Assembly: GCF_000178475.1 (NCBI RefSeq)
Contig: NZ_ADNY01000042.1
Location: forward strand, 1 to 44,590
Direction: 5' to 3'
DNA from: Lactobacillus amylolyticus DSM 11664
GTDB lineage: Bacteria; Bacillota; Bacilli; Lactobacillales; Lactobacillaceae
DNA length: 44,590 nucleotides
Positions 5,027 through 12,222 of the stretch are shown in pieces; within the stretch, counting starts at the first letter, position 1; the number at the start of each line of letters is the position of its first letter. Below the pieces are notes generated by a model that did not search any database, had not been told where the DNA came from, and worked only from the letters and a program-made list of their open reading frames with translations. The position numbers were made by a program, and so were the translations under genes.

Positions 5027-5055
5027 TTGATAATATGTCCTTGAGTGTGTATACT
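5027..5055 (+). promoter_or_regulatory. mazEF2 promoter with direct-repeat operator candidate
   Basis: TTGATA (5027-5032), 17 bases, TATACT (5050-5055). The octamer TGTGTATA occurs twice around the -10 and start region, 11-12 bases apart, on one face of the helix; this is a plausible site for autoregulation by MazE-MazF. Confidence 0.6.
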
Positions 5056-5080
5056 TTGTGTATATAAAGGAGCGATTAAT

Positions 5081-5323
5081 ATGACTGTTAAATTAAGAAA
5101 AGTTGGAAATTCAAGAACCTTAACTGTTCCTAAAGAAATAAAGGCTGTTAGTGACGAATATACAGTAAAAAATGATGGTACTACAATCATTTTTACTCCT
5201 GTTAAAAAAAGAAAAAATATTTTTGCTGATCCAGAATGGAAAAATTATGATTATCAAAATGATGTAAAGAATGATACGGATTTGCAATCAGTAAAACCTG
5301 TTGGCAGGGAGGTTATTGATTAA
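5081..5323 (+). CDS. mazE: MazE/PemI-type antitoxin
   Basis: An 80-residue antitoxin. The N-terminal VKLRKVGNSRTLTVPKEI is a MazE swapped-hairpin DNA-binding domain; the C-terminal half (FADPEWKNYDY and an acidic tail) is the likely toxin-binding arm. Start is the ATG at 5081 behind AAGGAG; 12 codons upstream in frame are open but lie in the promoter and leader. It overlaps mazF by one base (TAATG). It is not close to the first MazE in sequence, so the two pairs were probably acquired separately. Confidence 0.85.
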   Translation: MTVKLRKVGNSRTLTVPKEIKAVSDEYTVKNDGTTIIFTPVKKRKNIFADPEWKNYDYQNDVKNDTDLQSVKPVGREVID

Positions 5324-5700
5324 TGCAATTTCCTAAAAAAGGTGATGTAATTATTGCAGATGCAGAGCCACATTCAGGTCATGAAATGGGTGGTCATGAT
5401 CCACGAAAAGGTAATATTCGTAGACATTATGTCGTTATGAGTACAAATGAATATAATGAGGCTACTCATATGTTTATCGGTATGCCAATTACAACTTCGA
5501 ATAAATATGAAAATAATCCTAGATACTTACCTATTTTAATTAATGGTAACGGCAATACAGGCGTCAAAGGATATATTGTTTTATGGCAATTGCAAAATTT
5601 CGATTTTGAATCTAGAAATGGAAAAATTATTAATCGTGTTGACCGTAAATTATTAGATAGTTTACAACGTTATGTAGACGACATGGTGGGAAAGGAATAA
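5323..5700 (+). CDS. mazF: MazF/PemK-family toxin
   Basis: A 125-residue PemK-like endoribonuclease: N-terminal KKGDVIIADAEP, a DPRKGNIRRHYVVMS strand with the conserved Arg/Lys cluster, MPITTS (counterpart of VPIS/T), then GYIVLWQLQNFDF and a C-terminal helix LLDSLQRYVDDM. It belongs to the long-loop subgroup with a Gly/His-rich insertion (HSGHEMGGHD) between the first strands, unlike the MazF at 2944. Cleaves RNA when its antitoxin is lost (family knowledge). Coupled to mazE by a TAATG overlap. Confidence 0.88.
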   Translation: MQFPKKGDVIIADAEPHSGHEMGGHDPRKGNIRRHYVVMSTNEYNEATHMFIGMPITTSNKYENNPRYLPILINGNGNTGVKGYIVLWQLQNFDFESRNGKIINRVDRKLLDSLQRYVDDMVGKE

Positions 5701-5905
5701 AAAAGAGAGATATCCTCCTGTCAAATTTTGAAGTATCCAGATTTAATCAGAAATTAAAAAATCACCTAAAGTTCATATTTTGAGTAGTCAATGAACTGAT
5801 AGGCTTAAACAACTAACCAAAAATAAGAAAAAACTATTGTATTTTTCTGGAATTAAGGATATCATTCTACTTATAAATTGTAAGACATAAAAGGAGATGA
5901 AAAAC

Positions 5906-6016
5906 ATGTTGGCACTTAAATTTACAAATGAATCTAGAGAATGTTGTTGCTGTAACAGCATCTTATTTGACGTGCCTAACATGCAACGCATCTCTATCTA
6001 TAATTATTTTAGTTAA
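5906..6016 (+). CDS. 36-residue cysteine-rich ORF, candidate leader peptide
   Basis: The ATG at 5906 has a strong AAGGAGATG ribosome site 8 bases upstream. The peptide begins MLALKFTNESRE, has four consecutive Cys codons (TGT TGT TGC TGT, residues 13-16), and ends SIYNYFS. A strong terminator at 6047-6086 lies between it and the oppA start, so the order is ribosome site, short ORF with a run of one amino acid, terminator, transport gene. That resembles an attenuation leader responding to cysteine (compare Cys-rich uORFs known in mycobacteria). Alternatively it is a secreted or modified peptide, though no modification genes are near. I know of no named family. Confidence 0.5.
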   Translation: MLALKFTNESRECCCCNSILFDVPNMQRISIYNYFS

Positions 6017-6046
6017 TTTATTTTTTATTGATTGAAATTCTTATTC

Positions 6047-6086
6047 AAACGAGCTGTAGTCATTTTAGGCTGCAGCTCGTTTTTTG
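6047..6086 (+). terminator. terminator between Cys-rich ORF and oppA
   Basis: ACGAGCTGTAG pairs with CTGCAGCTCGT across a short loop and is followed by six T. It lies in the leader of oppA, so it may act as an attenuator rather than a simple gene end. Confidence 0.85.
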
Positions 6087-6117
6087 TGTCTAAAAAAATA
6101 TAAAAGGAGAGAATGAC

Positions 6118-7762
6118 ATGAATAAATTTAAGATTTTTGCGACAAGTTTAGTTACTATTTCTGCAGCGATAGTACTTGTGGCTTGTGGCAATACTTCTAA
6201 TTCACAAAGTTCAAGAAATAGTAAAACTTTAAATTTGAGTACAACTGCCCCTTTGGACACGATTGACATTAGTAAATCCACCGGTTATGGCCAAACAGGT
6301 AATGTGTTCGAAAGTTTCTATCGCCTAGGTAGCAATGGTAAACCAACAGCGGGTTTAGCAAAGTCCGGGTTTGTTTCTAAAAACGGAAAAACTTGGACTT
6401 TCAAATTAAGAAATGCGAAATGGTCAAATGGAGATCCAATTACTGCTCAAGATTTTGTTTATTCCTGGCATCGTAGTTTGAATCCAAAAACTGCTTCACC
6501 ATATTCCTACTTATTCAGCGGTGTGAAAAATGCCAACCAAATTATTGCAGGCAAAAAGAATTCCAATAGTTTAGGAATTTCAGCACCAAATAAGAGGACG
6601 GTAGTTGTGAAATTAACACGTCCAATTGCTTACTTTAAGGTTTTAATGGCTTATCCACTATTTGGGCCACAGGATGCAAAAGTTGTCAAAAAATATGGTA
6701 GTAAGTATGCTACTAAATCACAATACCAAGTTTATTCAGGTCCATTTGAAATTACAGGATGGAATGGCACTAATGATTCCTGGTCATTTGTTAAAAATAA
6801 AAATTATTGGGATAAAAAAGCAGTTAAGCTGAACAAGATAAACTATGAGGTGGTTAAATCAAACAACACGGGCTATCAATTATATCAACAAGGTAAATTA
6901 GATTTAACGCCACTTTCCAGTGAACAGGTTAAAAACTTGAAAAGCAACAAAGATTTTAAGTCATATCCATATTCTTATGTTCGCTTCTTAATGTATAACT
7001 TTAAGGATAAAAACAAAGTAAATCGGAAGGCTTTGAATAACCGCAATATTCGTCTTGCTTTATCATTGGCAATTGATCGAAATGTAATTACAAAAAAAGG
7101 TTTTAGGTGACGGTTCTACAATCCCAACCGGTTTCGTTGCCAGTCAATTGGCTTCAGATCCAAAGTCCGGTACGGATTTTGCTAAACAGCAAAGTGTTAA
7201 AAATACTACTAATTATAATGCTGCTTTGGCTAAGAAATATTGGCAAAAGGGCTTAAAGCAAATTGGTGAAAAGAATTTAACTTTTAATCTTTTAGCTTCA
7301 AATGACAGCACCGATAGTGACCAGTTAACGCAATACTTACAATCACAATGGACAAAAGTATTAAAAGGCATCAAAGTTGATGTAACAAATATTCCTGCAA
7401 AATCATTTGATAGTCGTGCTCAAAGTGGCGATTTTGACATTGATTTGTCTGGTTGGGGTGGCGACTTTAATGATCCAATGACCTTTATGCAAATCCCAAT
7501 GACAGGCACTTCATATAATTATGGCAAGTGGTCAAATAGTAAATATGATCAGTTAGTAAATCGGGGAGCCAACCAGGACGCAAATAATGTCAATGCCCGT
7601 TGGCAGGATTTGGTTAAAGCAGCTCGAATTGTAAATAGTGAACAAGCGATCACTCCAATTTATCAACAAACAACGGCTTATTTGCAAGATTCAAGGGTTC
7701 ATGGCATTATTCATAACACTGCCGGTACGCAATGGAATTACAAATATGCTTACGTAAAATAG
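6118..7762 (+). pseudogene. oppA: oligopeptide ABC transporter substrate-binding lipoprotein (OppA), frameshifted
   Basis: Repaired, this is a family 5 solute-binding protein of about 548 residues, the normal OppA length. It has a lipoprotein signal with lipobox LVAC (Cys23), N-terminal KTLNLSTTAPLDTID, the family motif LRNAKWSNGDPITAQDFVYSWHR, and a C-terminal half with FDIDLSGWGGDFNDP. One extra A in an A7 run near 7090 ends the first frame at 7110; the second frame resumes at once and continues to 7762. A single-base change in a homopolymer may be a sequencing error, reversible slippage or true inactivation. No oppBCDF genes follow, so the protein would work with a permease encoded elsewhere. 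Ribosome site AAAGGAGAG. Confidence 0.92.
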
Positions 7763-7960: not shown

Positions 7961-9556
7961 ATGAACCTAAAAGAGCTTTTGAAAATAAACATTCCGCGAT
8001 CAGGTTTAATTATTTTCTTATATTTAATTTATGCTATTGCTGGTTCGATGGGTGAATATCTATTTAAATATGCTCTAAATGCAATTACAGTTGGCCACTT
8101 GAATACTTATCTCTTTTGGCAAATTGTTGAAGCAGTGATGGAAGTATTAGCAGCACTTTTATTGCCAGTTGCAACGGTTGTTTTTACTAGACAGACGCAG
8201 AATTATCTACATAAAATTCGGCAAGACATCGTGCAACACTACTATGTTCAGGGCGATGAAAAAGTAGCTAACATGCAAAATGAATTAACAGCCAATTTGA
8301 AGTTACTCACGGACAAATATGCCAATTCTTGGATCACTATTTTAAGTGGTTTGTTTGAAATTATCATTGCCATTGGTCTGCTCGTCAGCATGAATTGGTT
8401 ATTAATTGTTGTAACTGCGGTTTTAGCGGTTTTGACTTTGTACTTGCCTAAGCTGCTAGAAAAGAAAACTTCCGCTGCAATGGACCAAGTCAATCAAAAA
8501 CATCAAAAGTTATTGGCTGCGATTGAACATTGGCTTGTCGGACTGCAGGAATTGCGACGCTATAGTGCTTATGGTCGTCTTTCACGGCAACTAAAAAAAG
8601 CGAGTGGCGACTATGCGGAAGCCGGAATTAAAAGCGAAGGTATCACCAGTTGGTCATATTTAATTAACGGTGTCGGTAACACTTTGGCACAATTTGGTTT
8701 AGGAATTACAGGTGGCTTGCTCTTCATTTTCGGCAAAATTTCCTTTGGTGACTTTGTCGTTGCCAGCGGTTTTGCATTTACTATTTTTTCCGGGATCTGG
8801 GATATTACTGACTCACTGACAAAAGTGAAATCAACCAAGACCTTGCGTGCACAAACTGCCGAATTAAGAAAAAAGCTTGCCGATCATGCTGCTGAAAAAG
8901 TCCCAGTCTTTAGTCTTTCAGTTAAAAATCTAAAAGTTAAATATGATCAGGGCGAAGAAATTGCTTATCCGGATTTTGAAATTAAAAAAGGACAGAAGGT
9001 CTTGCTCAGCGGTGATTCAGGTACGGGTAAATCAACCTTGTTTAAAGTACTTTTAGGCGAATTAAAACCTGAAACAGGGACGATCACCTATTATGATCAA
9101 TCTGGCAATATTATTCCAAATGAAAAAGCAAAACTTAATTTCATGCCGCAAGATCCGATCGTCTTTCCTGTTTCGATCAAAGACAACATTACCATGTTTA
9201 AGGAAGAACTCGCAGACAAGTTGGGTCGGATAACACAGGCAGTGCAATTGCAGCCTGATTTGGCTAAGATGCCTGCAGGTCTTGATACGCAAGTTGATTT
9301 GAAGACAGAAAATCTGTCAGGTGGACAAAGACAAAAAGTTGTCTTGGCAAGAACGGAAATTCATGAGCAGCTCTTTGTTTTAATGGACGAGGTTACGAGT
9401 GCGATTGATCAAGAAGTAACGGAGAAAATTATTGATAACTTGCTTCAAACAAATCAAACCATTTTAATGATTGCACACAACTTTACACCGGAGTTAAAGG
9501 AAAAACTTGATCAAGAAATCAAATTAACTGCTAAGAGAAAGGAGAATAAAGAATGA
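7961..9556 (+). CDS. ABC exporter half-transporter (TM domain fused to ATPase), subunit 1
   Basis: A 531-residue fused transporter. The N-terminal half has six membrane helices of the ABC exporter type. The C-terminal ATPase has Walker A GDSGTGKST (about 351), signature LSGGQRQK (about 452), Walker B LFVLMDE (about 472) and the switch His in IAHNF (about 506). It overlaps the next gene by ATGA, so the two products are probably made together as a heterodimer. It has a strong GAAGGAGGAG ribosome site. Relatives export peptides, lipids or drugs; the cargo is not evident here. The linker before the ATPase domain is short, as in bacterial MsbA/BmrCD-like exporters. Confidence 0.9.
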   Translation: MNLKELLKINIPRSGLIIFLYLIYAIAGSMGEYLFKYALNAITVGHLNTYLFWQIVEAVMEVLAALLLPVATVVFTRQTQNYLHKIRQDIVQHYYVQGDEKVANMQNELTANLKLLTDKYANSWITILSGLFEIIIAIGLLVSMNWLLIVVTAVLAVLTLYLPKLLEKKTSAAMDQVNQKHQKLLAAIEHWLVGLQELRRYSAYGRLSRQLKKASGDYAEAGIKSEGITSWSYLINGVGNTLAQFGLGITGGLLFIFGKISFGDFVVASGFAFTIFSGIWDITDSLTKVKSTKTLRAQTAELRKKLADHAAEKVPVFSLSVKNLKVKYDQGEEIAYPDFEIKKGQKVLLSGDSGTGKSTLFKVLLGELKPETGTITYYDQSGNIIPNEKAKLNFMPQDPIVFPVSIKDNITMFKEELADKLGRITQAVQLQPDLAKMPAGLDTQVDLKTENLSGGQRQKVVLARTEIHEQLFVLMDEVTSAIDQEVTEKIIDNLLQTNQTILMIAHNFTPELKEKLDQEIKLTAKRKENKE

Positions 9557-11136
9557 GTTTAAAAGAATTATATCGAATTAACCCTAAGAGATTTATTCTT
9601 CTTGTCATTTTGCAGATCTTTACGCCAGCTGTTTCAATCGTCAATATTTATGTTGCCCAACAAGAAGCAAATATTGTTTTAACTAAAAATCTGCGCAATT
9701 ACTGGTTAATCAGCTTTCTTGCATTAACGCTTATGTTCATCTCATATGGAGTTTTTGCTTGGTTCAATTATTTATCAAATAAACAAATGCAAGAAATCAG
9801 CAATCAAGTTAGAGCTGAAATTGTCGATCATTATTATCATGATGGTAAAGAACATCAAGTTGCTGCAATGCAAAACCGTTTAACCAACGATTTGGAAATC
9901 GTAATGGGCAACTATTATGAGCCATTTTTAATGGGCATTTACGGGGCCACGCTCGTTGTTGGCGTTATCGTTTATCTGATTATTTTGAATTGGCTGCTGC
10001 TAATTACAATCTTGTTAATGGTGGCTGTTTCTCTGCTTTTGCCAAAATTAACTGAAAAGCCGCTGCAAAAGGCAACCAAGATGATCTCTGATAGCAACCA
10101 AGTGTACCTTGATTCTTTAAATGAGTGGCTTTCTGGCCTAGCTCAGATTAGACAGTTCTTTGCTGGTGCTAAATTGTTTAGTGTTTCATCAGCAGCTTCC
10201 AAAAAGCTTGAAGATGCAACGGTGAAACAAACGGCATATCAAAAGTTATTAGAGGCTCTCAATGGGATTGTATCTGCAATTTTTGGTTTGATTCTGTTTG
10301 TTCTAGCTGGATTTTTGATCAAAGACGGTCAACTGACAATCGGAACTCTAGTTATTGTTGGTAACTTTAGGTTTTATCTCAATTCTGGTATTAATAGGAT
10401 TACGTCAGCTCGCGGTTCAATGAAGGGAACGACTAAGCTGCTTGATGAGATCGATGAATCGGCAGCTAAAGTGCAACCACATGCGCAAACTGATTTGGAA
10501 ATTCCAAGCATCATCAAGACTAAGGATTTGTGTCTGCAATTTCCGAATGGTGAAAAATTGACTTATCCTGATTTAACTATTAATCAAGGTGAAAAGATTC
10601 TGTTGACAGGTGATTCGGGTTCGGGCAAGTCGACTCTGTTTAAACTAATTTTGGGCGGACTCAAACCAAGCAAGGGTAAAGTGATTTTCGAAGATCATGA
10701 TGGCAAAGAAATTGAACCTGATCTAAGCAAGATCGGTTATATTCCGCAGGATCCGATTGTTTTCCCGGCTTCAATTGAAGACAATATCACAATGTTTAAT
10801 GAAAAATTGGACGGAAAAGTTGAAGCTGCTGTCAAAGAGGTTAACTTTGATGAGGATATCGACAAGTTTAATAAAGGTTTGCAGCAAAAATTAAATTTGG
10901 ATAAGTTAAATATTTCTGGTGGTCAGCGGCAAAAGATCGTGCTTGCTAGAGCCAAGGTTCACAATAGCGACATTATTCTGATTGATGAAGGAACAAGTGC
11001 GATCGATCAAACCGCAACCATGAATATTTTGAAGAATTTAGTGAAGAGTAAAGCAACGATTGTCTTTATTGCTCATAACTTCAATGAAGGGATGCGGCAG
11101 TTGTTTGATCGCGAGATCCATTTGGTAAAAGAATAG
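9553..11136 (+). CDS. ABC exporter half-transporter, subunit 2
   Basis: 527 residues, the same architecture as the preceding gene and clearly paralogous (both begin with MxLKEL and share DPIVFPxSIxDNITMF). Walker A GDSGSGKST (about 353), signature ISGGQRQK (about 454), Walker B with IDEGTSAID, switch His in IAHNF. Both nucleotide sites keep the catalytic Glu, so the heterodimer is not obviously degenerate. It starts inside the stop of subunit 1 (ATGA). Cargo unknown. The hairpin of the second holin-toxin module, 80 bases downstream, may serve as its terminator. Confidence 0.9.
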   Translation: MSLKELYRINPKRFILLVILQIFTPAVSIVNIYVAQQEANIVLTKNLRNYWLISFLALTLMFISYGVFAWFNYLSNKQMQEISNQVRAEIVDHYYHDGKEHQVAAMQNRLTNDLEIVMGNYYEPFLMGIYGATLVVGVIVYLIILNWLLLITILLMVAVSLLLPKLTEKPLQKATKMISDSNQVYLDSLNEWLSGLAQIRQFFAGAKLFSVSSAASKKLEDATVKQTAYQKLLEALNGIVSAIFGLILFVLAGFLIKDGQLTIGTLVIVGNFRFYLNSGINRITSARGSMKGTTKLLDEIDESAAKVQPHAQTDLEIPSIIKTKDLCLQFPNGEKLTYPDLTINQGEKILLTGDSGSGKSTLFKLILGGLKPSKGKVIFEDHDGKEIEPDLSKIGYIPQDPIVFPASIEDNITMFNEKLDGKVEAAVKEVNFDEDIDKFNKGLQQKLNLDKLNISGGQRQKIVLARAKVHNSDIILIDEGTSAIDQTATMNILKNLVKSKATIVFIAHNFNEGMRQLFDREIHLVKE

Positions 11137-11215
11137 AAGTCAGTATCATGTTTTTTTGCTAAAAAAGACTCACATTTTTAGTGTTACGAAAGAATCTAAA
11201 TAATTAAATTATTTG

Positions 11216-11290
11216 TTGAATAACTGCTAGCTTTGCCGAGCTAAAGCAGTTATTTTTTTCGCCAATTTTTGAATTTGATCAACTTGACGA
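11216..11290. repeat. holin-like toxin 3' module, copy 2 (hairpin acts as terminator)
   Basis: Diverged copy of 4670-4744. AATAACTGC / GCAGTTATT with seven T on the plus strand can terminate the ABC operon. The antisense promoter and the first two hairpins of copy 1 are absent, so this module appears decayed. Confidence 0.75.
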
Positions 11291-11306
11291 CAAATGTACC
11301 AAGCAT
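11250..11306 (-). pseudogene. holin-like toxin peptide, decayed second copy
   Basis: Minus-strand frame ending RKK-TAA. From the only ATG it gives an 18-residue peptide (MLGTFVVKLIKFKNWRKK), but the frame is open upstream as FVSDALLL, which matches the N-terminal part of holin-like toxins, and no start codon precedes that part. A residue of the usual MLxFGTF motif is missing. No cognate RNA promoter is visible. Probably non-functional. Confidence 0.5.
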
Positions 11307-11350
11307 TAACAGTAAAGCATCTGAGACAAATATGAAATTTCTCTTTTTAT

Positions 11351-12202
11351 TTACCTTAATTCTTTTGCCCTTTTAAATACATCGATAAAGGTATTGGCAG
11401 CGTCATTCATTCCTAAATCAACTGTTTTTTGGATGAATTCTAAAATATCATCTTCTTCGCCATTTTCCATGTATCGTACAACCTCTTGTAAAAAGTTCAA
11501 AGTCATTTTAAAGAAGCTAAATACTTGTGACAGTTTTATTCGCTCAAGAGCGTTTAAAAGTTTTTTTGCTCGTTTCAAATCTTTTCGAAAGATAAGCGAA
11601 ATACTTGCATCAGCTAAAACTCCCATCATAGTTATTAGATTATAAAAAGTAGGGTCCTTTGGAATTAAATCTTGATTATTGATAATTTGCATTGCAATAG
11701 CAAAAACACGATCAGATTTGATCATAAAAACGCAGTTGCCAAAGAATGAAAGGTTGAAGGAACTCCAAACTTTAATTTGCGATAAGTGAGTATAAAGCCG
11801 CATTTGATCAGAAAAAGGCAATAAGTTTTTGTTCTTAATTAGTAAGTACTGATTGCATAGAACAATTGCTAAAAATAGGTCAAAAAATTTTCTGTTTTGA
11901 TGGTAAAGATCAAGATAATAGGCGATCAGTTTTTCCATTTTAACGGTGTCTCCGGCTTCGATTACCTGTCGTATTTCTGCTGGTAAGGTTTCATCATTAT
12001 CGGTTTCAGAATTGCCAATGAATTCAGTAGGGGTAAAATGGATACGATTAATTAACTTCATCACATTATCGAAGGTGATTTGAATTTTGCCGTTTTCCCA
12101 ACGGGATAAATTTGAAGTTGAACAAATACCTTTTGCAGCAGCAGTTAACGTAATATTTTGTTCTTTTCTTAATCGTTTGAATTTTGGACCTAATGATTTC
12201 AT
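11351..12202 (-). CDS. Rgg/MutR-family transcriptional regulator
   Basis: 283 residues. N-terminal XRE-type helix-turn-helix (KFKRLRKEQNITLTAAAKGI, then STSNLSRWENGKI) at about 5-60; the rest is the helical Rgg/MutR C-terminal repeat domain that binds short peptides in characterised members. Start is the ATG at 12202 behind GGAGGT; the frame runs 4 codons further to a TTG that overlaps the ribosome site. It is divergent from the third ABC gene, which it probably controls. No short hydrophobic pheromone gene is visible beside it. A related but decayed regulator is at 43885-44590. Confidence 0.88.
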   Translation of the reverse strand: MKSLGPKFKRLRKEQNITLTAAAKGICSTSNLSRWENGKIQITFDNVMKLINRIHFTPTEFIGNSETDNDETLPAEIRQVIEAGDTVKMEKLIAYYLDLYHQNRKFFDLFLAIVLCNQYLLIKNKNLLPFSDQMRLYTHLSQIKVWSSFNLSFFGNCVFMIKSDRVFAIAMQIINNQDLIPKDPTFYNLITMMGVLADASISLIFRKDLKRAKKLLNALERIKLSQVFSFFKMTLNFLQEVVRYMENGEEDDILEFIQKTVDLGMNDAANTFIDVFKRAKELR

Positions 12203-12222
12203 TTGTACCTCCAAAAATTAAT

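Follow-up and report, generated by a model that had tools for sequence, protein, structure and literature searches.

The window, a stretch of 44,590 nucleotides from Lactobacillus amylolyticus DSM 11664 (contig NZ_ADNY01000042.1), encodes a family-5 peptide-binding lipoprotein, OppA, that is preceded by a short leader ORF. The first-pass annotation had described this ORF as 36 codons long, led by a Shine-Dalgarno (SD) sequence, carrying four Cys codons in a row and followed by a terminator ahead of oppA. This description is confirmed, and the elements lie as follows.

5837-5865, + strand: putative weak promoter (TTGTAT, 17 nt, TATCAT), read by eye
5890-5896, + strand: SD sequence AAAGGAG of the leader ORF, 9 nt 5' of the ATG at 5906
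5893-5899 with 5989-5994, + strand: helix P1, GGAGATG with CATCTC, which includes part of the leader SD sequence
5905-5915, + strand: segment 1, CATGTTGGCAC, which surrounds the start codon and pairs with segment 2 in folds
5906-6016, + strand: leader ORF, MLALKFTNESRECCCCNSILFDVPNMQRISIYNYFS, 36 codons plus stop
5942-5953, + strand: regulatory codons TGT TGT TGC TGT (four Cys), in the 5' arm of a small apical hairpin
5972-5994, + strand: segment 2, GTGCCTAACATG...CATCTC, 3' of the Cys codons
6047-6082, + strand: segments 3:4, intrinsic terminator of 15 pairs with a 6-nt loop, then TTTGTGT
6104-6109, + strand: SD sequence AAGGAG of oppA, read from the letters
6118-7762, + strand: oppA (SBP_bac_5), with its ATG at 6118

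The putative promoter is located roughly where relatives carry TTGACA in an alignment; it is absent from the output of a scan of the + strand. An in-frame ATG at 5897 is unlikely to be the leader start, as it abuts the SD sequence. An Rfam scan of the window returned no family at the gathering score, including the T-box (RF00230). The leader is 99.6% identical across 258 nt to the L. amylolyticus plasmid NZ_CP031836, and the three matching plasmid records list no feature beneath the leader match in their incomplete gene table.

The oppA frame of the window is broken between 7090 and 7148, close to an A-run (7091-7097), and both pieces (6118-7110 and 7148-7762) match SBP_bac_5. NZ_CP031836, which is 98.6% identical to the window over 11 kb, carries a single 1644-nt gene at this place. 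The break may be a genuine mutation or an error of sequencing. Upstream of the leader is a PemK/MazF-like toxin gene (5045-5700) with a small ORF just 5' of it, a possible antitoxin that has no Pfam hit. Downstream of oppA (7961-12214) are two ABC exporter-type genes with a 4-base overlap and then a convergent Rgg-type regulator.

The leader is tied to one group of OppA proteins. Relatives of OppA are encoded in 154 genome-contig stretches, the best 80 of which were kept as orthologues. To count as a leader, an ORF had to be SD-led, 12-75 codons long and within 450 nt of the gene, and to include at least three Cys in a stretch of eight residues. Such a Cys-cluster leader precedes 71 of the 80 best orthologues, 69 by the rule and two by reading (L029 and L034, whose start codon is unclear). 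L001, a near-copy of the window, is excluded from the leader counts. The leaders span seven genera, and the loci are related, so the counts overstate their independence. The remaining nine orthologues have a T-box (seven) or neither element (L027 and L081); the upstream sequence of L027 is only 284 nt long and contains a group II intron hit.

Among the regions upstream of other long ORFs at the same loci, only 4 of 538 satisfy this rule, and two of these four are leaders of tandem OppA duplicates (77% and 71% identical). These duplicates of this OppA each have a Cys leader of their own (L032 2701-4482 and L042 3051-4745). Six genomes allow a comparison with paralogues: the leader precedes all six orthologues and none of 20 scored paralogues, out of 30 paralogue matches from which L104, L105, L108 and L111 were left out and six were without a locus. 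An order-wide sample contained this OppA in 6 of 198 genomes at E<=1e-160, and the five further loci that it supplied (two repeats, three new) all have a Cys leader. A blastn search of plasmids added one more distant leader, from L. intestinalis, directly 5' of an OppA that is 84% identical over the first 327 residues; it includes RECCC and a terminator-like hairpin. Searching 75 Lactobacillus genomes with the leader DNA gave a match in nine, several of them very short. One locus (L016) is filed under Faecalicatena absiana (Lachnospiraceae) and clusters with L. delbrueckii relatives, pointing to contamination or transfer. In Ligilactobacillus salivarius, a ROOL RNA (RF03087; L020 2294-2842) is encoded close to oppA.

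The terminator is conserved together with the Cys run. An intrinsic terminator lies between leader and gene in 71 of 73 leaders (the window and 70 of the 72 others); L039 and L052 are without one by the rule used. In the window, the terminator stem has a free energy of -24.3 kcal/mol (z -7.6, none of 200 shuffles as good), and it begins 30 nt past the leader stop codon, before the oppA ATG. In 54 of the 71 leaders with a terminator, the onset is 22-50 nt past the stop codon. The fold of the whole leader (5860-6140) has a z of -6.3, again with none of 200 shuffles as good. In the Lactobacillus group, 7 of 10 terminator pairs have changed on both sides.

Segments 1 and 2 are predicted to form a second helix (1:2), and alignments support both this helix and the terminator. 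Across 12 leaders of the Lactobacillus group, the 1:2 helix alone has 84.3% of its cells paired, as against at most 54.5% in slid controls, a comparison in which drawing the structure from the window favors it. In the same leaders, 5 of 17 pairs show two-sided changes, each in one sequence, and 3 of 500 shuffles match or exceed the score for covariation. Taking the 1:2 helix and the terminator together, 87.8% of cells are paired and 12 of 27 pairs are changed on both sides (seven of them in the terminator), a score reached by none of 500 shuffles. In Levilactobacillus, 3 of 9 pairs of the 1:2 helix have two-sided changes and none of 500 shuffles reaches the score. Furthermore, the 1:2 duplex beats swapped partners in 46 of 71 leaders.

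The search for alternative folds suggested by the first-pass annotation thus turned up the 1:2 helix and the terminator, but an antiterminator (2:3) appears by pairing energy in about half of the leaders and is not backed by covariation. In this pairing, the segment after the Cys codons would bind the 5' arm and loop of the terminator. Duplex tests on 71 leaders (L039 and L052, which are without a terminator, were excluded) found that 2:3 beats partners swapped between lineages in 35 (p<=0.05) and dinucleotide shuffles in 25 (p<=0.05). By the swapped-partner test, the pairing is strong in Levilactobacillus (15 of 18), Lentilactobacillus (6 of 7), L. equi and hayakitensis (2 of 2) and L. salivarius (1 of 1), and it is significant in 6 of 12 leaders of the Lactobacillus group. 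The same test found significance in none of ten Lactiplantibacillus, four Furfurilactobacillus, four L. acidipiscis group and two L. ruminis group leaders, and 3 of 4 Lapidilactobacillus leaders likewise fall short of it. The 2:3 duplex of the window (-16.0 kcal/mol) gives p 0.21 in this test, and the antiterminator fold of the window (-15.6) is less stable than the terminator. Covariation of 2:3 on two alignments did not beat shuffles, and alifold returned no common antiterminator from the Lactobacillus-group alignment. Sequence mimicry between segments 1 and 3 was considered as a general feature and discarded, being significant in only 12 of 71 leaders. Several lineages are likely to have a 2:3 antiterminator; for the window it is unproven, and this helix is the weakest link of the attenuator reading.

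The leader peptides have little in common beyond their cysteines. Cys makes up 14.6% of leader residues, with three to six Cys per leader in varying spacings (CCCC, CCC, CCPCC, CCEC, CCQC, CVCC, CCSMC and others), and the Cys codons are in the middle of the ORF in all leaders but L039. Alignment gaps reveal where the reading frame matters. Between the start and the Cys codons, all nine distinct gaps are multiples of three, and 3' of the Cys codons this holds for 2 of 19 gaps up to the latest stop codon and 1 of 7 up to the earliest. These counts come from 40 of the 73 leaders in three group alignments, with overlapping gaps of unequal length taken as distinct. In L003, L005, L006 and L009, a one-base shift alters the frame past the Cys codons but leaves the nucleotides TTTG..GT similar. 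What matters is therefore the frame as far as the Cys codons and the RNA beyond them, which fits the needs of an attenuator and not those of a free peptide. Translation of the leader ORF is a sequence-based prediction from the SD sequence and the frame-keeping gaps before the Cys codons.

Two properties of the OppA proteins themselves were also compared. Sulfur sparing was tried and left unused: any Cys in the mature part occurs in 7 of 82 orthologues and 3 of 20 paralogues. Met is slightly lower in the orthologues than in the paralogues (p 0.02, in related sequences).

We conclude that the leader is very probably a trp-type, ribosome-mediated transcription attenuator that senses the charging of tRNA-Cys, and possibly of tRNA-Met, and controls one orthologous group of OppA. 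This supports the cysteine-responsive attenuation proposed in the first-pass annotation, now for a leader retained in most of the best orthologues and nearly always followed by a terminator. The alignments and folds of the DNA show the ORF, a frame that is constrained as far as the Cys codons, the terminator, the 1:2 helix and the link to this OppA. From these we infer that the ribosome stalls, that 2:3 acts as the switch, which way the response goes and what peptides are carried. When Cys-tRNA is plentiful, the ribosome would pass the Cys codons and reach the stop codon or leave. Segment 2 would then be covered by the ribosome or paired back with the start-codon region (1:2), and with segment 2 occupied the terminator (3:4) could form and oppA would not be transcribed. 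When Cys-tRNA is short, the ribosome would be stalled at the Cys codons and leave segment 2 free before the terminator is complete. Free segment 2 could pair with the 5' arm or the loop of the terminator (2:3), allowing RNA polymerase to read through and oppA to be made. Read-through would increase the uptake of peptides, presumably those containing Cys or Met.

A role of Met is suggested by the leaders and by the orthologues that carry a T-box in their place; the raised Met codons and the Met T-box in some orthologues were both absent from the first-pass annotation. Internal Met accounts for 6.2% of leader residues, as opposed to 1.17% of those of OppA; the two other frames give 1.0% and 4.0%. 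In 46 of 73 leaders, at least one Met falls in the six codons that precede the first CC.

A T-box riboswitch reads tRNA directly and has no leader peptide. In seven Liquorilactobacillus loci, a T-box (RF00230) with its specifier read as AUG is found before the orthologous oppA in the very place of the Cys leader; it is absent from the window. One of them (L030) scores above the Rfam cut-off, five (L024, L028, L033, L036 and L041) are below it with E<=1.3e-13, and that of L037 was read by eye. The T-box before the OppA of L. sucicola has GAA-G-AUG-G in register of the Rfam alignment, and the six other orthologous T-boxes have AUG at the equivalent place by eye; specifiers other than that of L030 were assigned by eye or by a simple pattern. 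Applied to the 30 T-box loci of the L. sucicola genome, this pattern located the specifier region in seven, six with AUG and one with AUC. One AUG T-box precedes a gene for a MetN-like ATPase with a NIL domain (TIGR02314 is the best match, below cut-off) and another precedes a gene for a methionine-synthase-type protein (NF005085, over cut-off). The specifier of the oppA T-box is thus most likely Met.

In a quick OppA tree, the seven T-box rows fall inside the Cys-leader rows and require two changes, so the leader looks older than the T-box here. L081, which has neither element, falls within one of the two T-box branches. The T-box orthologues support the idea that this OppA helps to supply sulfur amino acids. 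They point to Met as much as to Cys, and Met is the sole signal assigned in orthologues.

Four of the Liquorilactobacillus loci have a second conserved SD-led small ORF, like MTRIRFHKIIAWLVFWRGSSRGSKAI, between the T-box and oppA (L028 ~4850, L033 ~4850, L036 4853-4948 and L037 ~4797). Its relatives occur in 9 of 151 family genomes, three of which are oppA loci again; besides the four loci above, it is recorded at L162, L163, L164, L165, L166 and L167. Apart from the one at L165, these precede an O-acetylhomoserine sulfhydrylase (over cut-off), two symporters of the sodium:dicarboxylate family and a GST_C_2 protein. Another relative, just past a T-box, precedes a permease whose best resemblance, below cut-off, is to cystine ABC permeases. 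The second small ORF has no Cys run and is possibly a sulfur-linked arrest peptide.

These observations bear on what exactly is sensed. The leader could be a sulfur-amino-acid attenuator in which the ribosome is slowed at Met or Cys codons, a sub-case of the main attenuator reading whose odds overlap with it. We regard such a combined sensor as a possibility, held tentatively. It would account for the raised internal Met, for the Met ahead of CC in the majority of leaders (e.g., MMMCCPCC in Lactiplantibacillus) and for orthologues with T-boxes read as Met. It also agrees with L. brevis, where MetQ-, MetN- and MetP-like genes are encoded two genes downstream of the Cys-leader oppA (L050 7260-10395). 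By eye, this Met-gene cluster is located behind a T-box-like leader (GAAGATGG, AATGGTACCACG), which however has no Rfam hit at the gathering score. Also against it, the window leader has its single internal Met after the Cys run, Met is missing from the six codons before CC in 27 of 73 leaders, and the AUG codons could serve RNA pairing instead. We speculate, with less than even confidence, that an attenuator ancestral to a large part of the Lactobacillaceae reads Cys and Met jointly, as a sensor of sulfur amino acids for one dedicated peptide-binding protein, and that a Met T-box replaced it in Liquorilactobacillus in two changes, one branch also having the second leader peptide that precedes other sulfur genes.

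Alternatively, the nascent peptide could arrest the ribosome through its Cys cluster, by binding a metal or haem or by reaction with thiol oxidants, in which case the signal would be redox or metal rather than tRNA charging. Spacings such as CCPCC or CCxxC exist, but spacing and flanking residues vary between genera, the number of Cys stays at three to six, and the sequence after the Cys codons may change frame. We consider this mode of sensing improbable.

Translational control, in which RNA structure hides the oppA SD sequence and the terminator only ends a short RNA, has a similarly small chance of describing the leaders in general. Intrinsic termination between the Cys codons and oppA is predicted in all leaders but two. 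The two exceptions are the leaders that would suit it: L052, and L039 from Ligilactobacillus saerimneri, which ends in CCCC-stop and contains a TTCTCCC stretch that by eye could pair with the oppA SD sequence. L039 is possibly a translational variant.

The other explanation offered by the first-pass annotation, a small peptide, secreted or modified, that is independent of an oppA merely lying beyond its terminator, could draw on the strong SD sequence and the terminator soon after the ORF; it is very unlikely, given that the leader is bound to one orthologous oppA and absent before the scored paralogues, its length and C-terminus vary and its frame, kept up to the Cys codons, is mostly lost past them.

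Cysteine and methionine supply is important for growth and flavor in food lactobacilli. A trp-type attenuator before oppA would provide a testable signal, and thereby a likely cargo, for one of the many OppA paralogues for which sequence by itself gives no assignment. The Liquorilactobacillus loci add a natural experiment in which a leader peptide is swapped for a T-box on the same gene and the sensed amino acid apparently shifts from Cys, or Cys and Met, to Met.

Proteobacterial attenuators of the trp/his/leu type combine an SD-led short ORF, a run of codons for one amino acid, a 1:2 helix and a terminator. The oppA leaders resemble them in all of these and in the stop codon near segment 2. 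They differ in that the amino acid is Cys (perhaps Met), the gene serves peptide uptake, the hosts are Firmicutes and 2:3 is only partly supported.

Switches between T-box and leader peptide are known, as are His leader peptides in bacilli, according to the accessible text of Naville and Gautheret (2010, PMC2965389). These are likewise Firmicutes leader peptides where relatives have a T-box, but they read His and belong to hisS and hisZ. In Actinobacteria, the available portions of two papers describe Cys-codon clusters ahead of sulfur genes and propose attenuation (PMC1262725, PMC4633059), and Cys-codon attenuation is reported as shown in M. smegmatis (Canestrari 2020, as cited in part of PMC13236596). 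As portrayed there, the actinobacterial leaders have no conserved terminator, have their Cys codons near the stop codon, are leaderless and are called translation attenuation. Unlike the mycobacterial Cys uORF so described, the leaders here have an SD sequence and an intrinsic terminator, and the Cys codons of the window are mid-ORF.

Another comparison is the uORFC-8-2 motif before cysS in Rhodobacterales, for which the accessible part of PMC8632094 gives tandem Cys codons, stems and a U run read as a terminator, and predicts ribosome-mediated attenuation. The oppA leaders share with it a uORF with tandem Cys codons and a terminator; the motif differs in occurring in Alphaproteobacteria, before a tRNA synthetase gene and with two Cys codons. 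No report of a Cys leader in lactobacilli was found among the literature matches listed, which cover few subscription journals and make this absence weak evidence. The main text of a regulon paper on lactic acid bacteria (PMC3616900) contains neither 'T-box' nor 'attenuat'.

Cys-codon attenuation has been reported in Actinobacteria and is predicted in Rhodobacterales; the oppA leaders would extend it to lactobacilli, with intrinsic terminators. The kind of attenuator is known, the variant with a Cys leader in lactobacilli appears to be new and is spread over many Lactobacillaceae, and the mechanism is likely, with a predicted switch helix and a predicted response to cysteine.
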